DNA of 38,701 nt from an uncultured Owenweeksia sp. Its GTDB lineage: Bacteria > Bacteroidota > Bacteroidia > Flavobacteriales > Schleiferiaceae. Made by a program: the position numbers and the translations under genes. The stretch covers positions 1 to 38,701 of the forward strand of contig CAKZRR010000007.1 in NCBI GenBank assembly GCA_937146805.1, written 5' to 3'. Below the pieces are notes generated by a model that saw nothing but the letters and a program-made list of their open reading frames with translations, made no database searches and had not been told where the DNA came from. Of the stretch, positions 6,473 to 12,831 are shown in pieces. Each line of letters begins with the position of its first letter. Position 1 is the first letter of the stretch.

Positions 6473-8674
6473 TTATGATTGGAGTTTGGGAGGCTTGCCC
6501 TTTTTGTTTTTAGGTGTGGCCTTGGTGGTAAATGTTTTCTTTCGTTTTACCACTTTTGGGGCGGCTTCTAATTGGGCTTTGGCCGATATAAATTGGGCAC
6601 GTGACACCAAGCTATTCATGTTGGGGCCTAGCGTAATTAGGTACTTGTTTTTCTTTATTTCGGCAATACGGCCTTTAATACCACTGCTAATAATTTGCAC
6701 TTCATCGCCTACCGCTACTTCAGTTTGTTTTAGCTCTTCCAGTTTTTTGGCGCGTTTCTTTTGCGCTTTGCTTAACTGTGTTTTTTCTTCTACTTGTACC
6801 TCGCTGCTACGCTCATTTAATATGCCAATAAAACGTGCAATCACGGCTTTTTTGTCCTTTTGGTTTTGCTGCTTCATCCAAGCCTCTACCATTTTTTGAA
6901 AGCGTAAACCCCAGTATAAAATACGGTCGTTGGTTTCATTTAGCTTCGATTGCTTTTCCAGCTTTTCTTCCAGCTTTTGAATGGTCTCCGTTTTAGAAGC
7001 TTCCAATACGCGTATCTTTTGCAAATCTTGATTCAGTCTATTTCGCCTTTTCTCTAATTGCAATTTATCGTCTTGTAGCTTTACCAATAAGGCATCTACC
7101 TCTAATGTTTGCTGTGCTGTTTTGCTACGCGCCTCTTGCACCAAGTGTTTAGGAATCCCGCTTTTGGCAGCTACCTCAAAAGTGTAACTGCTACCCGGGT
7201 TGCCTACTTCCAGTAAGTACTCGGGGCTAAAAGTGCGTTTATCAAATAACATGGCCGCATTTTGTACTCCAGGCAAATTGGCGGCCAATGATTTTATCGC
7301 ATTGTAATGCGTAGTAAAAATGCCGTAAACATGGTAGCTGTTTAGTTTTTCCAAAAACACTTGGGCTAGTGCACTGCCCAGCTCTGGGTCCGATCCCGAT
7401 CCAAATTCATCTACTAATAAAAGAGTATTATCATCCGCATTTTGCAAAAAGTAGTTCATTTTTTGCAGCTTGGAGCTGTAGGTACTTAGTTCGTTTTCAA
7501 TAGACTGGCTGTCACCAATATCTGCGAAAAGTTTATTAAAGAAAAACAGTTCACTATGCGCATCTACAGGAATCAATACCCCCGATTGTAACATTAAGCA
7601 CAGTATGCCCAATGTTTTTAAGGCAATAGATTTTCCGCCCGCATTGGGTCCGCTTATTACCATTAGTCGTTGCCCCGGGTGTAGGCTTAAATTTAGTGCA
7701 ATGGTGTCTTTTTTCTTTTCCTTGTTTAGTATTTGCAATACGGGGTTGTAGGCATTTACGAGTTTTATGGTTTTGTTTTCTTGATTAAGTATAGGAAGTG
7801 TGCATTTTTCGCGATAAGCAAATTGTGTTTTGGCGTGAATAAAATCAAGGTTTACCAGCTTGCGTTCCATTTGTTGTAAAAAGGAGGCTTGGGGCTGAAT
7901 ACGCGCTGTAAGCTCTTTTAGTATTTTTCTAATTTCATGACGCTCGTCATCTACCAATTGCGCAATTTCATTGTTCACTTCCACTGTTTCGGCTGGCTCT
8001 ACATATACAATGGAGTTTTTTGAACTACTACCATGAAAAATACCGTTGGCCTGTCCTTTAAAACTAGATTGTATGGCCAACACTCGCCTGTTCTCTGAAA
8101 TGGTTTCGTCAAAATCGGCTAACAAGCCACGATCTTTATACTTTTTTAAAGCACGGCTAAAAATACGTTCGGCCGCGGCTCTTTTTTTACCCAGCTGCTG
8201 GCGTATGTATTGTAACTCCTTTGAGGCATTTGATTTTACTTGACCACGCTCGTCAATTATAGAGTTAATCGCATTTACAATCCAAGCTTGCGGTTCGGTG
8301 GCTTGTATTTTATAAAATAGTTGCGGTAGTTTTTGGCGCTTGACGCGAATAAACAGAAACAACGACTCATATACTCCATGGGTAGAACGTATATGTGTAA
8401 AAGCCTCTTCTTCTAAAACAACTCCTTTAACCAAAAGTCTTTTGGCGTGGGCCTTTATAGGTTTAAACCCGATGCTGGGCAAGGCGATCTTCTCTTCTAG
8501 TAATTTTAAGAGCTCATGGGTGCAATGCAATTCGGCCAAAATTTCGGTTTTGGGCAAGGTGCTCATATTGGTGGCGAGCAATTGAGCCGCTTCCGATAGG
8601 CATAGCTGGGCAATTTGTTTTTTGATGAAATCAAAATCCAGTTGTTGCTCTATTTCTTTGGGGTACTTTTTCAT
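6473..8674 (-). CDS. mutS2: MutS2-like ATPase lacking the Smr domain
   Basis: A 733-residue MutS-family protein of the MutS2 branch: no N-terminal mismatch-recognition domain. The core/lever region occupies about 1-300. The ATPase has a Walker A GPNAGGKS near 343-350 and a Walker B LLLVDEFGSGSDPELGSA near 418-435. A charged coiled coil of about 70 residues follows (about 515-585), then a KOW-like segment (VGDEVQIISSGIKGRI) and a basic tail ending at KKGKPPKLQS. MutS2 proteins of Bacillus type are about 785 residues and end in an Smr nuclease domain; this one ends before it. Family roles include suppression of recombination and, in Bacillus, rescue of collided ribosomes. Without Smr the second role would need splitting activity alone. 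A TACATTTG box precedes the gene. Confidence 0.9.
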   Translation of the reverse strand: MKKYPKEIEQQLDFDFIKKQIAQLCLSEAAQLLATNMSTLPKTEILAELHCTHELLKLLEEKIALPSIGFKPIKAHAKRLLVKGVVLEEEAFTHIRSTHGVYESLFLFIRVKRQKLPQLFYKIQATEPQAWIVNAINSIIDERGQVKSNASKELQYIRQQLGKKRAAAERIFSRALKKYKDRGLLADFDETISENRRVLAIQSSFKGQANGIFHGSSSKNSIVYVEPAETVEVNNEIAQLVDDERHEIRKILKELTARIQPQASFLQQMERKLVNLDFIHAKTQFAYREKCTLPILNQENKTIKLVNAYNPVLQILNKEKKKDTIALNLSLHPGQRLMVISGPNAGGKSIALKTLGILCLMLQSGVLIPVDAHSELFFFNKLFADIGDSQSIENELSTYSSKLQKMNYFLQNADDNTLLLVDEFGSGSDPELGSALAQVFLEKLNSYHVYGIFTTHYNAIKSLAANLPGVQNAAMLFDKRTFSPEYLLEVGNPGSSYTFEVAAKSGIPKHLVQEARSKTAQQTLEVDALLVKLQDDKLQLEKRRNRLNQDLQKIRVLEASKTETIQKLEEKLEKQSKLNETNDRILYWGLRFQKMVEAWMKQQNQKDKKAVIARFIGILNERSSEVQVEEKTQLSKAQKKRAKKLEELKQTEVAVGDEVQIISSGIKGRIAEIKKNKYLITLGPNMNSLVSRAQFISAKAQLEAAPKVVKRKKTFTTKATPKNKKGKPPKLQS

Positions 8675-8897: not shown

Positions 8898-9362
8898 ATG
8901 AAAAAGATGTTATTTATTATGGCAGTTCTTGGCTTGGGTCTTAGCTCTTGTAAAAAAGAGGAAGACAACAACAAAGGAGCCGTGCCAAACTCAAGTGTAA
9001 AAAGTTTTGACGATGTAACTGTCCCGAAAAACTTTGACTGGAAAACGGATCACGAAGTGACCATTAGTATTAAGGGTTTAGAAAACGACCTGGAGGTGCT
9101 TAACAAGATTGTAGTTAAGAGTGCAGACGGAGTAATTTTCGCTACTCGTACAGCTCGTAGTAATGAAGATTTAGACATAGTTTTGACTTTACCTAAGGCT
9201 TTAAAAACAGTTGTATTACAAGCAGGTGAATTTGAAAAAGAAGTTGATATCATGGGTAACCGTGTAAGCTTTGATTATATACCAGCGGCAGACGAAACAA
9301 ATGATGATTCGGATAACCCAGTGTACGAAGAGGGTGACGAAGAAATTTTTGACCTAGACTAA
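8898..9362 (+). CDS. small lipoprotein with the N-terminal domain of LruC proteins
   Basis: The 154-residue product starts MKKMLFIMAVLGLGLSSC, with lipobox L-S-S-C and lipidated Cys18. A single beta-rich domain runs from about 40 to 126 (VPKNFDWKT ... VVKSADGVIFATRTA ... LTLPKALKTVVLQAG). It can be aligned with residues 38-120 of the lipoprotein at 11141 (VAPANFDWQT ... VVKVYSEKGILLAVRNM ... LDIPKSESSVIVAY). The tail is strongly acidic (DETNDDSDN, EEGDEEIFDLD). The gene sits 28 bases before a secreted LruC protein and is probably co-transcribed with it. The pair therefore corresponds to one fused protein next door, suggesting that the lipoprotein is the membrane anchor or partner of the LruC protein. 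Molecular function unknown. Confidence 0.8.
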   Translation: MKKMLFIMAVLGLGLSSCKKEEDNNKGAVPNSSVKSFDDVTVPKNFDWKTDHEVTISIKGLENDLEVLNKIVVKSADGVIFATRTARSNEDLDIVLTLPKALKTVVLQAGEFEKEVDIMGNRVSFDYIPAADETNDDSDNPVYEEGDEEIFDLD

Positions 9363-9390
9363 TAGCTAACCTTAAAAAATTTAAATAGAC

Positions 9391-10872
9391 ATGAAAAATC
9401 TTAAATTAATATTTGCGTCCATTTTCTTTGTTGGTCTTAGCTTTAATGGCAATGCCAACGTAACAGAAAACTTTAATCACGGTAACGAATGTATCTCAAG
9501 AGCCAACTGTTGGAGGTTTTGTAGAGTAGATGTTAGAAGTTACTGTATTTACAACCCTATTAATACGGGTGCTAATTTACCTTTAGCTCAAACGTCTCGC
9601 TTAAATGGGTATGGACGTAGAGGTAGAAGATATTACTCAACGGCTAAATTGTATTCTCCTTACACAGCCTTTAATGGTTCAGGAGATATTACCTTTAAGC
9701 ATAAGTTAAGCTCTAGTGGGGGTAAATATGCCAAACTACAAGCTTATTTAATTGATGACAACGGCTCGGTAGTTTCAAAAATATTTGAACATGTTTACAA
9801 GCACAACTACAGCTCACCTAATGGCCCAGCTAATGTTACTCAAATGGCTACTATTCCAATTACCTGGACAGGTGTGTACAAAATTAAGTGGTACTGGAAA
9901 GGTTACACTTGTGGCAACCGTGGTTTAATTGATGACATTGACATAGACGGAACTTTCTCTGCTAATCCATGTAGATGGTGTAAGCCGGTAATTCCAACGT
10001 GTGTTGATACAGATGGTGACGGATGTTGTGATGATGTAGATGATTATCCAAATGATGCTACTAAATGTAACACTACCTATGAGCCGGGTAAAGATCAGTA
10101 TCTTTCTGTAGCTTACGAAGACAGATGGCCACATGTAGGTGACTATGATTTCAACGATATGGTTATCGATAGAAGCTCGGTATATGGAATGACCAGCAGT
10201 AACTTGGTTGTAGATGTTGAGCATGAATTAGTAGTACGTGCATCCGGAGCTACATTCCATAACGGTTTTGGTATTCAAATGCCAGCTTTAGCCCTGGCTG
10301 ATATTGCCAGCGTAACAGGAGCTGTTAATCCTAACAACTATACCGCTACCGAGGTTAATGGCTTGGAGTCAGGTCAAACTAAGCCTGTGATTGTAGTTTG
10401 GGAAGATTGGAATGATGTAATTATTTCTAATCCTTCTGGAATTTACTTTAACACCAGACCGGCTGACCCAGTGGGAACACCGGATACGGTAAGGTTAGGA
10501 ATCGTATTAACATCTGCTAAGCCTTATGCTGATTTAGATTTTGACCCATTTCTTATGGCAGATAGCCAAAGAGGAAGTGAGATTCACTTGCCTTGGTTCC
10601 GTCCTACAGATTTAGCAGATACGACATTATTCAATACTTTGTTTGATGCTTCTGATGTGCTTAACGTTGGTAACGGAAACCATTATGTAGATGTAAACAA
10701 CAGACCATGGGCTATTCAGACAGCTAGTGGTAAGTTTGATTACCCAAAGGAATTTTCTAACATTTTGGCTTCCTATAACCACTTTGCCACTTGGGCTCTA
10801 AGTAATGGTACTACCAATAACGATTGGTACTATGACCTACCGGGATATAGAAACGCTTTTAATATTTATTAG
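9391..10872 (+). CDS. secreted LruC domain-containing protein
   Basis: A 493-residue exported protein with signal peptide MKNLKLIFASIFFVGLSFNGNA and no lipobox. The N-terminal domain (about 28-190) is Cys- and aromatic-rich and looks like a jelly-roll/galactose-binding fold. Residues 204-226 form a calcium-binding thrombospondin type-3-like loop (DTDGDGCCDDVDDYPND). The LruC domain follows, with its typical DYDFNDMVID (251-260), a second GGATFHNGFG-like segment (here ASGATFHNGFGIQMP) and a conserved C-terminal half (SEIHLPWFRPTDLAD). No T9SS C-terminal sorting domain is present, so it must reach the surface another way, perhaps via the upstream lipoprotein. Its LruC part is a clear paralogue of that in the protein at 11141. 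The operon ends in the hairpin at 10913. Confidence 0.85.
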   Translation: MKNLKLIFASIFFVGLSFNGNANVTENFNHGNECISRANCWRFCRVDVRSYCIYNPINTGANLPLAQTSRLNGYGRRGRRYYSTAKLYSPYTAFNGSGDITFKHKLSSSGGKYAKLQAYLIDDNGSVVSKIFEHVYKHNYSSPNGPANVTQMATIPITWTGVYKIKWYWKGYTCGNRGLIDDIDIDGTFSANPCRWCKPVIPTCVDTDGDGCCDDVDDYPNDATKCNTTYEPGKDQYLSVAYEDRWPHVGDYDFNDMVIDRSSVYGMTSSNLVVDVEHELVVRASGATFHNGFGIQMPALALADIASVTGAVNPNNYTATEVNGLESGQTKPVIVVWEDWNDVIISNPSGIYFNTRPADPVGTPDTVRLGIVLTSAKPYADLDFDPFLMADSQRGSEIHLPWFRPTDLADTTLFNTLFDASDVLNVGNGNHYVDVNNRPWAIQTASGKFDYPKEFSNILASYNHFATWALSNGTTNNDWYYDLPGYRNAFNIY

Positions 10873-10912
10873 AGATCAAAGTTTCTCAACCTTAACCTGA
10901 TATCTAAGAAAA

Positions 10913-10939
10913 AGCCATCTCATCGAGATGGCTTTTTTT
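10913..10939 (+). terminator. Rho-independent terminator after LruC operon 1
   Basis: The stem AGCCATCT/AGATGGCT (8 bp) has loop CATCG and is extended by A:T pairs to a T8 tract. It lies 40 bases after the stop codon at 10872. Confidence 0.9.
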
Positions 10940-11050
10940 ATGCGGGTAAATGGTTGGACATTTGACTTCTATTTTAACTTGATTCTTAAAGTTTTACATT
11001 GTCTTCCATGTATGACACTTTTTGCTTCTAGCTGGGAATTAATTTAGATT

Positions 11051-11068
11051 ATGTTATTGTAATAACAT
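11051..11068. promoter_or_regulatory. 18-bp palindrome upstream of fused LruC gene
   Basis: ATGTTATT-GT-AATAACAT is an inverted repeat with two perfect 8-bp arms and a 2-base spacer, 73 bases before the likely start codon at 11141. There is no T-tract, so it is more like a dimeric repressor or activator site than a terminator. No similar site was found upstream of the 8898 operon. Confidence 0.45.
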
Positions 11069-11140
11069 CCTTGTTTTTAGGTGATTACAAGCAATGGCAT
11101 TATAGTTGTTTATGGAGTCGAACTTAATAAAATGAATCTA

Positions 11141-12772
11141 ATGAAAAAAGTATCTGCATTAGCAGTAATGGTAGCTTTATTTGCTGCTTCCTGCTCAAAA
11201 GTTGAATCAAATAAAAACGCTGCGATTAGTAGTTCTAGCGAATTAGTAGCGCCAGCCAATTTTGATTGGCAAACCAGTGGCACCGCCCAATTAGATATGA
11301 GTGCATTACTAAACTCATCAGCTACCTCTCAAGTAGTGAAGGTATACAGCGAAAAGGGAATTCTTTTAGCCGTTAGAAACATGGCTAATGACAAACGTAA
11401 TATTATCAGTTTGGACATTCCTAAGTCTGAATCTAGTGTTATCGTGGCTTACGATAATCAAGTACAAGATGTAACACTTCAATCCGGAACGACTTTGGTT
11501 ACCGCCAAAAAGAAAGGTGGCAAAGGTGGAAACAATGGCCCTGGAATTATTCCTCCAGGATTTAGCTGTGAATGTGAAGGAAGAATGAGAACATTTAGTA
11601 TCATTTATTCAGGTGTAGCAACAACAACAATAGAGTTGCACGAAAAGCAAAAAGGAAACAATGTGGGTAACACATTGATTTCAACATATGCGAACGTATC
11701 TACAGGTGATACTGTAGTGTTTTCACGCCCGGGAAACAATAGACTTTTTTCGCAATCACATGTAAAGGTGAATGGTGTTACGTATAATATTCACACATCT
11801 TGTTCAGTAGATATCCTCGGTGATGTATATGGCCCAATGTTGGTGATTTCATATACCAATGGTAACAATACAGTTTGTGACTGGACACCACCAGGTTGTG
11901 TAGATACAGATGGTGATGGATGTTGTGATAATGACGATTTGTTTCCAAACGATCCAACTAAATGTGACGTACAGTATATTCCTGGTGAAAATGTTTACGG
12001 ATCATACGCATGGGAAGATTTATGGCCTATGATGGGTGACTTTGATTTTAATGACAAGGTAGTTGACCGTAATACTGTATTAGTTTTAGACCCAGCTGGT
12101 GAGGTAACAGAAGTAACTCATAAATTTGTAGTAAAAGCGGGTGGAGCAGATTACTTAAACGGTTTTGGTTTTGCTATGCCCGGTATAGCTCCTGCTGATG
12201 TGCAAATGGTTACCAGTAGCTATGCACAACCAGGTCAATACACAACAATAGACGCTAAAGGCCTGGAAGCGGGTCAAAGTGAGGCAGTTGTAATTGTTTA
12301 TGAAAACTGGAAGCACGTTGTAACCTATACTCAAAACGGTAGATTCTTTAATACAATGGAAGCGGGTGGTTTAGAAACTCCAGGAATTGGGTATTCAGAT
12401 ACTATTATAGTAACCGTGAAATTTGCTAACGCTCAGTTAGTAGAAGAGGTGTTAGAAATTGATCCTTTCTTAATTAGAAATGGTGAGCGTGGAGCTGAAA
12501 TTCACTTACCTTGGTTTGGTCCAACCGATTTAATGAACAATGCCAACTTTGGTTTGGTAGATGATGCTTCTGCTTATCCTGCAATCGGTAACAATTGGGT
12601 AAACGCCAATAACCTTCCTTGGGCCATTGAAACTCCAGCTGGAGCCTTTGATTGGCCAATTGAAAGAATTGATATTGTAAATGCATATTACGATTTTGTG
12701 GAATGGGCTACTTTAGGTACTCCTGCAAATTGGTATAGCAATGCAAATCGTGACGCTTCTAAGATTTACTAG
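11141..12772 (+). CDS. LruC domain-containing lipoprotein (fused form)
   Basis: ATG 11141 gives a 543-residue lipoprotein: MKKVSALAVMVALFAASC with lipidated Cys18. In-frame ATG 11132 and GTG 11081 would only lengthen the signal. Residues 38-120 match the small lipoprotein at 8898. A Gly/Lys linker (KKKGGKGGNNGPG) follows. A middle domain of about 100 residues (142-245, Cys-rich ends) replaces the jelly roll of the 9391 protein. A type-3-like calcium loop (DTDGDGCCDNDDLFPND, 255-271) and a LruC domain (GDFDFNDKVVD, 299-309) reach to the end, with the same IHLPWFGPTDL block and terminal IY as its paralogue. Probably displayed on the outer membrane. LruC-type proteins are found in Leptospira and Bacteroidota, with no established biochemical function. 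Confidence 0.85.
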   Translation: MKKVSALAVMVALFAASCSKVESNKNAAISSSSELVAPANFDWQTSGTAQLDMSALLNSSATSQVVKVYSEKGILLAVRNMANDKRNIISLDIPKSESSVIVAYDNQVQDVTLQSGTTLVTAKKKGGKGGNNGPGIIPPGFSCECEGRMRTFSIIYSGVATTTIELHEKQKGNNVGNTLISTYANVSTGDTVVFSRPGNNRLFSQSHVKVNGVTYNIHTSCSVDILGDVYGPMLVISYTNGNNTVCDWTPPGCVDTDGDGCCDNDDLFPNDPTKCDVQYIPGENVYGSYAWEDLWPMMGDFDFNDKVVDRNTVLVLDPAGEVTEVTHKFVVKAGGADYLNGFGFAMPGIAPADVQMVTSSYAQPGQYTTIDAKGLEAGQSEAVVIVYENWKHVVTYTQNGRFFNTMEAGGLETPGIGYSDTIIVTVKFANAQLVEEVLEIDPFLIRNGERGAEIHLPWFGPTDLMNNANFGLVDDASAYPAIGNNWVNANNLPWAIETPAGAFDWPIERIDIVNAYYDFVEWATLGTPANWYSNANRDASKIY

Positions 12773-12800
12773 AAGTAACGATTTATAAAATACCAAAAAA

Positions 12801-12831
12801 GGCCTCCGCGTATTAACGTGGAGGCCTTTTT
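12801..12831. terminator. bidirectional terminator between LruC gene and lysS
   Basis: The 11-bp stem GGCCTCCGCGT/ACGTGGAGGCC has one G-T wobble and an ATTA loop. An A6 run precedes it and a T5 run follows, so it can serve both the LruC gene (+) and the convergent lysS (-). Confidence 0.9.

Follow-up and report, generated by a model that had tools for sequence, protein, structure and literature searches.

Two Leptospira LruC proteins, LIC20172 and LIC13086, have been described as outer-membrane proteins (PMC8280789). That paper keeps the 'LruC domain' and DUF4842 of LIC20172 apart and casts doubt on labelling LIC13086 as LruC. The literature found in one library on the LruC domain, DUF4842 and BACOVA_00967, including PMC8280789 and PMC9957290 and available in part, made no mention of a split two-gene form or of the N-terminal domain described below. 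We analysed a 38,701-nucleotide stretch of DNA (the window) from an uncultured Owenweeksia sp. (contig CAKZRR010000007.1 of assembly GCA_937146805.1), the source genome of which comprises 58 contigs and 3.16 Mb. A lipoprotein gene and a secreted LruC protein gene lie there next to a gene for one fused LruC lipoprotein. The three are named by their start positions, and the domain that links them, defined here, is called the LruC-associated N-domain.

8898 to 9362, forward strand: lipoprotein gene 8898, 154 amino acids; lipobox cysteine codon at 8949, with C-K-K-E-E-D next and then the N-domain (open reading frame and lipobox analysis, signal fit after PMC5080379).
9391 to 10872, forward strand: secreted LruC protein gene 9391, 493 amino acids; N-terminus hydrophobic, without a lipobox (open reading frame and domain analysis).
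11141 to 12772, forward strand: fused LruC lipoprotein 11141, 543 amino acids from the ATG at 11141; lipobox cysteine codon at 11192.

Gene 9391 starts 28 bp past the stop of 8898, and an alternative GTG start for 11141 stands further upstream, at 11081, in the list of open reading frames (ORFs). The N-domain was found with nearly every intact LruC domain surveyed, whether in cis or encoded immediately before it, which points to a role in holding LruC at the cell envelope. Judged by sequence comparison, 8898 and the N-terminus of 11141 share this domain.

8991 to 9284, forward strand: N-domain (NFDW domain) of 8898, a predicted seven-stranded beta-sandwich (AlphaFold2); profile match to residues 32–129 with E 3e-21.
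11225 to 11515, forward strand: N-domain of 11141; profile E 3.2e-30, although the 11141 row was part of the alignment behind this profile; independent tests agree.

The first-pass annotation, made from the sequence alone, had proposed that 8898 aligns with the N-terminus of 11141 from a shared NFDW start and with an unbroken core. BLASTP bore this out, with 28% identity, no gaps from NFDW onwards, and E values of 2e-12 with the signal peptides and 4e-10 after their removal; the latter value rules out a similarity due to the signal peptides alone. Without its signal peptide, 8898 scored 48.7 bits (E 7.8e-14) against a profile made only from fused N-domains of other genomes (n = 53), compared to a best score of 10.7 bits among 2000 shuffled 8898 controls, so that chance similarity was ruled out. 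All 25 split N-domains tested scored between 28.9 and 64.9 bits against the fused-only profile, a range that is partly circular, as the rows had been gathered by a profile seeded with split and fused sequences together; the BLASTP comparison without signal peptides and the 8898 profile score are the cleaner tests. The split-only and fused-only profiles were matched by hhalign with a probability of 99.4 over 98 columns. No Pfam or NCBIfam family was found in 8898 at E 0.01, and the other N-domain members gave only scattered matches; when 84 N-domains were compared with Pfam, any single family was matched by at most three of them at E 0.01 (Big_1, best 5.5e-5). A search of PDB sequences with the N-domain profile gave weak CnaB-like and other matches, and 3oqq was absent among the 30 matches listed.

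The N-domain was surveyed in Bacteroidota genomes, with the LruC proteins of Vibrio and Leptospira outside the scope of the survey. The related set comprised 79 genomes, the source genome included, from which 115 regions were fetched and their ORFs re-read. Of these genomes, 31 contain LruC (E 1e-5) and 32 contain the N-domain (E 0.01). There were 141 LruC ORFs in the related set: 100 were fused to an N-domain, 27 had an N-domain lipoprotein gene upstream, and 14 showed neither arrangement. The 27 split pairs lie on the same strand with gaps of −4 to +30 bp, have lipoproteins of 118 to 185 amino acids (lengths that include unverified upstream starts), and are spread over 15 of the 79 genomes, three of the pairs being in the source genome. 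Inspection of the 14 remaining ORFs showed cuts at contig ends (L044, L105, L036), a start 94 bp from a contig end (L133), apparently broken frames (L065, L078, L095, L126) and fragments (two in L063, one in L077); in all, 11 of the 14 look broken or cut off, the other three being the second of two tandem LruC genes at L132 and the large proteins L050 and L094. With the broken or cut ORFs set aside, 127 of the 130 left have the N-domain either in cis or encoded by the gene directly upstream. Counted by rows over the 79 genomes, LruC follows on the same strand, no more than 2.5 kb downstream, for 118 of the 129 N-domain rows, and an N-domain lies upstream for 119 of the 143 LruC rows.

A phylum sample of 296 genomes was drawn evenly, and the best 8 or 16 candidates per genome were scored, so that the counts are lower bounds; 8 of the 9 LruC rows of the source genome were recovered in this way. 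LruC was found in at least 18 genomes (E 1e-10) and the N-domain in at least 19 (E 0.001), the source genome included. Without that genome, and among the matches listed, the N-domain and LruC occurred in or adjoining each other in 33 of 37 cases, counted both ways. A second set, consisting of ten phylum-sample regions and 77 loci of a named genome collection, contributed a further 111 LruC ORFs, of which 78 were fused and 17 paired; another 13 were truncated by the 5' edge of the locus, and three had no N-domain. Six loci that repeated earlier contigs were excluded from this set, and its counts were unchanged by the repeat check. Two of the 17 pairs repeat earlier contigs, leaving 15 further split pairs (gaps up to 273 bp) and a total of 42; the additions include pairs in a Bacteroidales metagenome-assembled genome (MAG; L173) and a Sphingobacteriia MAG (L151). 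Whether split pairs recur beside fused forms across Bacteroidota had been put forward as a question for profile searches; they do recur, and some genomes carry both forms. The recurrence in 15 of 79 genomes, and in 42 pairs overall, rules out a one-off of the source genome. The 27 split pairs are likewise not broken genes, since both halves begin with a signal-like stretch of their own and the arrangement is found repeatedly. Split pairs with a very long secreted LruC protein (724–1490 amino acids), mostly with a strongly acidic middle, were also noted (L055:1192-5661, L048:1062-3467, L173:1970-4777, L184 and L204:1634-4780).

Of the nine LruC proteins of the source genome, six are fused lipoproteins and three belong to split pairs, one pair being that of the window and two lying in tandem at L018. 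Across both sets, a lipobox-like cysteine was present in 42 of 42 split lipoproteins. The strict lipobox pattern was matched by 83 of the 100 fused ORFs of the related set, the other 17 having a cysteine after a hydrophobic stretch by eye; with a looser rule, 170 of the 171 fused ORFs from the two sets have it. Among the 42 split LruC partners, 40 had no lipobox-pattern match, the matches in L096 and L151 being read as chance, and all 42 had an N-terminal hydrophobic stretch. The lipobox pattern was not matched by 9391, and the type IX secretion system (T9SS) tail, tested as TIGR04183 only, was detected at E 0.01 in 0 of 29 split-type LruC proteins, 9391 included, with the positive control at L018 found. 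The absence of a lipid anchor or T9SS signal of its own, as first proposed for 9391, is thus upheld for the lipobox pattern and TIGR04183. The control, at L018:7403-7933, is a T9SS type A sorting domain protein of the same genome as the window; the source genome therefore probably has a type IX system, of which the split LruC proteins make no use.

The domains of the secreted partner and of the fused protein were as follows.

9454 to 9954, forward strand: jelly-roll domain of 9391, resembling MAM, gingipain cleaved-adhesin and carbohydrate-binding module (CBM) domains; VIA-align Z 13.6 to 4itc (cleaved adhesin) and 13.5 to 5l73 (MAM).
10006 to 10065, forward strand: calcium-loop-like stretch of 9391, DTDGDGCCDDVDDYPNDATK, with invariant D206, D208, D210 and G211.
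10108 to 10830, forward strand: LruC domain of 9391 (TIGR04456; VIA-align of the model to 3oqq).
11507 to 11899, forward strand: Gly/Lys-rich linker and CxCxG middle domain of 11141, DUF7467-like below the cut-off.
12005 to 12736, forward strand: LruC domain of 11141 (TIGR04456).

Both LruC domains scored well above the TIGR04456 cut-off of 36 bits, 9391 with 208.9 bits (E 1.4e-61) and 11141 with 187.8 bits (E 3.8e-55), and the two proteins have this domain in common, as had been suggested. The stretch DTDGDGCCDDVDDYPNDATK may bind calcium, as such motifs do. The predicted structure of 9391 had a mean predicted local distance difference test score (pLDDT) of 82.8 and a predicted template modelling score (pTM) of 0.63. 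Its residues 204–493 matched residues 132–453 of 3oqq (VIA-align Z 18.1, 247 residues, root-mean-square deviation 3.6), and its residues 19–188 matched MAM, gingipain cleaved-adhesin and CBM jelly rolls with Z values of 10.8 to 15.2 over the listed rows. No Pfam family was found at E 0.01 in the jelly-roll part of any of 29 relatives. By its modelled fold, the jelly roll may be glycan- or protein-binding. The middle parts of the two proteins are unlike, a jelly roll in 9391 versus the CxCxG domain in 11141; the DUF7467 cut-off of 27 bits was not reached by 11141 (16 bits) or by three relatives (26.6, 18.3 and 23.8). In L038:268-2037, a fused relative of 11141, the N-domain and the middle domain are joined by a long (GSK)n linker that was given a collagen-like score.

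In L144 (E 7.8e-41) and in L223, from a Bacteroidales MAG (E 2.2e-44), a single chain carries the N-domain, then a jelly roll of the family found in the split partners, then LruC. The layout differs in detail, with the calcium-loop-like stretch before the jelly roll in L223 and the LruC match beginning after that loop in L144, and the two lie far apart in the LruC tree. The functional link between the lipoprotein and the LruC protein is strong. The first-pass annotation had taken the split and fused forms as Rosetta-stone evidence of a complex; the functional link stands, on the recurring split and fused forms and on the L223 and L144 fusions, and the sequences point beyond it to a physical complex only as something we infer.

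The sequences show the homology, the cis-or-trans rule, the gene order and the lack of a recognised anchor in the partner. On balance, we consider it probable that the 8898 lipoprotein docks the otherwise unanchored, adhesin-like LruC protein 9391 at the outer membrane, and that the fused forms do so in cis. The genes 8898 and 9391 would form a two-gene unit with cooperating products: a lipoprotein, probably of the outer membrane, carrying a small beta-sandwich domain, and a secreted protein with a jelly roll and LruC and without a recognised anchor. The N-domain would bind the LruC protein and thereby hold 9391 on the envelope, probably on its outer face in view of the LES-like signal discussed below, and where it is fused, as in 11141, it would hold LruC in cis. 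Direct binding, the membrane or surface position and ligand binding are the parts of this account that we infer. A link that is functional and not physical, with 8898 as a co-regulated envelope lipoprotein that serves the LruC protein without holding it, for instance as a periplasmic folding or quality-control factor, would suit the operon-like spacing and co-inheritance, which need nothing beyond co-expression. However, 100 of the 141 ORFs have the N-domain and LruC in one polypeptide, twice together with the same jelly roll, and a mere helper would presumably be fused only rarely; we regard this alternative as rather unlikely.

The location of the pair was considered from the residues after the lipobox. 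In PMC5080379, the optimal surface export signal (LES) of Capnocytophaga canimorsus is given as C-X-K-(D/E)2-X, and the consensus signals of Bacteroides fragilis and Flavobacterium johnsoniae differ from it. The CKKEED of 8898 fits the C. canimorsus consensus. The shorter C-x-K-[DE] followed the lipobox in 31 of the 42 split lipoproteins, in 65 of the 171 fused ORFs and in 3 of the 31 other lipobox ORFs, and the full motif in 8, 15 and 2 of these, respectively; the 31 background ORFs are a small, mixed group from the surveyed loci, and the split and fused counts were unchanged without repeats. As the B. fragilis and F. johnsoniae signals differ, surface exposure of 8898, judged from its sequence, is only a guess. 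Should the LES-like signal be recognised by a surface lipoprotein route, the lipoprotein might act as an export vehicle that carries its LruC partner across the outer membrane, for which the fit of CKKEED, the 31 of 42 split lipoproteins with the shorter motif and the lack of TIGR04183 in all 29 split-type LruC proteins could be adduced. With a consensus taken from C. canimorsus and differing in Flavobacterium and Bacteroides (PMC5080379), the full motif confined to 8 of the 42 split lipoproteins, and a pair that could be simply periplasmic, we find this very unlikely.

The AlphaFold2 model of 8898 (mean pLDDT 86.4, pTM 0.63) has seven strands, and its N-domain is, as modelled, a small beta-sandwich. 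Foldseek with the N-domain model gave no match at E <= 0.001. VIA-align gave transthyretin/CnaB-like matches with Z up to 7.4, which were tied and middling and included many unrelated proteins. A FimA prepilin is among the pilin domains that the model resembles (Z 6.3), as would suit an N-domain that builds a pilus-like polymer by strand exchange, either in the shaft or as the anchor unit, in the manner of type V pili; given those tied, middling values with unrelated proteins among them, we consider such a role highly improbable. Docking of 9391 remains the reading we prefer for the N-domain, and a further part of 8898 follows that domain.

9285 to 9359, forward strand: acidic C-terminal tail of 8898, net charge −12.

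In the model the tail has a lower pLDDT (60–76) and no strands or helices. Its charge of −12 compares with +11 for the jelly-roll part of 9391 (counted from residue 23 as far as the start of LruC). Of the 14 lipoproteins with a jelly-roll partner, 13 have an acidic tail of four residues or more after the N-domain, as against 0 of 28 others; the more positive the jelly roll, the lower the charge of the tail (rho −0.55, p 0.04, uncorrected for relatedness). A matching of the acidic tail to the partner jelly roll is a hint and was not accepted as independent proof, because only one or two changes on the trees underlie it. A more general scheme of two-part display, in which the lipoprotein family would serve as detachable anchor and export escort for LruC adhesins without a recognised export signal, with acidic tails that read the jelly roll and forms that interconvert, seems to us unlikely.

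Several observations weigh against docking by the N-domain. L050 and L094 are large LruC proteins without an N-domain, and the LruC ORFs L143, L145 and L209 also lack one; conversely, L052:399-761 is an N-domain lipoprotein gene with no adjoining LruC gene. At L132:1706-5054, one lipoprotein gene precedes two tandem LruC genes, perhaps with both partners using the same anchor. In 11141 and its fused relatives L017 and L038, the N-domain is followed by Gly/Lys-rich or (GSK)n stretches, so that no fixed packing is needed in cis. The association of tail and jelly roll amounts to only one or two independent changes on the trees. The tree distances of the N-domain and LruC are as closely correlated in 26 split pairs (0.71) as in 96 fused proteins (0.68); this speaks for docking, although any co-inherited operon would be expected to show such a correlation. 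Finally, 9391 has no recognisable outer-membrane export signal and no evident route to the surface.

The history of the two forms was examined with trees. Tree split rows excluded LruC matches shorter than 200 amino acids and the L078 pair; L129 and L056 were left out of the mirror-tree fused rows and of alignment A2, in which 84 of 122 N-domain references were aligned. The careful trees, on which approximately unbiased (AU) tests were run, used 61 of 124 rows, without L129, L056, L029 and L039_6. The larger trees comprised 86 LruC and 84 N-domain rows, the fused rows of the second set coming from only 17 named loci plus L144 and L223. In the LruC tree, 11141, C35 (L017), L038 and L024 form a group (support 100/100) that nests within an eight-row group (100/100) with the split 9391, L041, L032 and L028. 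A single group of all fused LruC domains was rejected (p-AU 0.0003), and the full LruC tree requires at least five changes between split and fused, three of them forced by starred branches. As the LruC half of 11141 groups with 9391 and the fused grouping is rejected, the split pair and the fused protein appear to have interconverted in the genus. Such an exchange, with a new middle domain, is well supported by the sequences; its direction is less well supported. A plain ancestral fusion, 11141, from which the pair was cut, is not favoured by the LruC tree. In the N-domain tree, the four fused rows of the 11141 group fall with split rows (95/89), but the alternative was not rejected (p-AU 0.41); in the larger N-domain tree that branch has 59/62 and the split N-domains no longer form one group. 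The source of the 11141 N-domain is thus less well supported than the exchange itself. The description of the pair as equal to one fused protein with its middle swapped therefore holds for the domains and fails for 11141 as a simple fused counterpart, the LruC half of which goes with 9391.

Folding of the transcripts gave two candidate terminators around these genes.

10907 to 10939, forward strand: terminator-like hairpin with a terminal T-run, between the pair and 11141; −19.5 kcal/mol, z −4.9.
12796 to 12831, forward strand: terminator-like hairpin with a terminal T-run, 3' of 11141; −27.4 kcal/mol, z −8.4.

Neither hairpin was reported by a consensus terminator scan, probably as their T-runs are taken up by the stems. 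RNA folding found no structure in the 41 nucleotides spanning the 8898–9391 junction; with strong T-run hairpins after 9391 and after 11141, the pair and 11141 look like separate transcription units. A MutS2-like protein is encoded at 6473-8674, divergent from the pair; a general domain scan listed no Smr domain there. A plasmid search returned 26 records, none covering 80% of 9391, and Vibrio or Leptospira LruC proteins were seen among them.

The LruC/DUF4842 proteins of Bacteroidota, the domain of which still goes by a label of unknown function, gain here a partner domain and hence a testable role in envelope tethering, and it may now be asked for this phylum by what means a secreted protein in which neither a lipid anchor nor a T9SS tail is recognised joins a surface-type lipoprotein. 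In comparison with known systems, the N-domain, as modelled, may be likened to the transthyretin/CnaB-like domains (the type VI secretion lipoprotein TssJ/SciN, FimA prepilins and CnaB pilins) in being a small beta-sandwich, placed in 8898 after the lipid anchor; the likeness is at the level of the fold only, with tied Z values of about 6 to 7.4 and weak PDB sequence matches. Residues 19–188 of 9391 have a common fold with the jelly rolls of gingipain cleaved adhesins, MAM domains and CBMs, although the MAM, meprin and cleaved-adhesin rows have only 8–14% identity to it. A further likeness is in the LruC domain itself (TIGR04456; PF16130, DUF4842), which 9391 and 11141 have in common with Leptospira LIC20172 and LIC13086 and with BACOVA_00967 of Bacteroides ovatus (PDB 3oqq).

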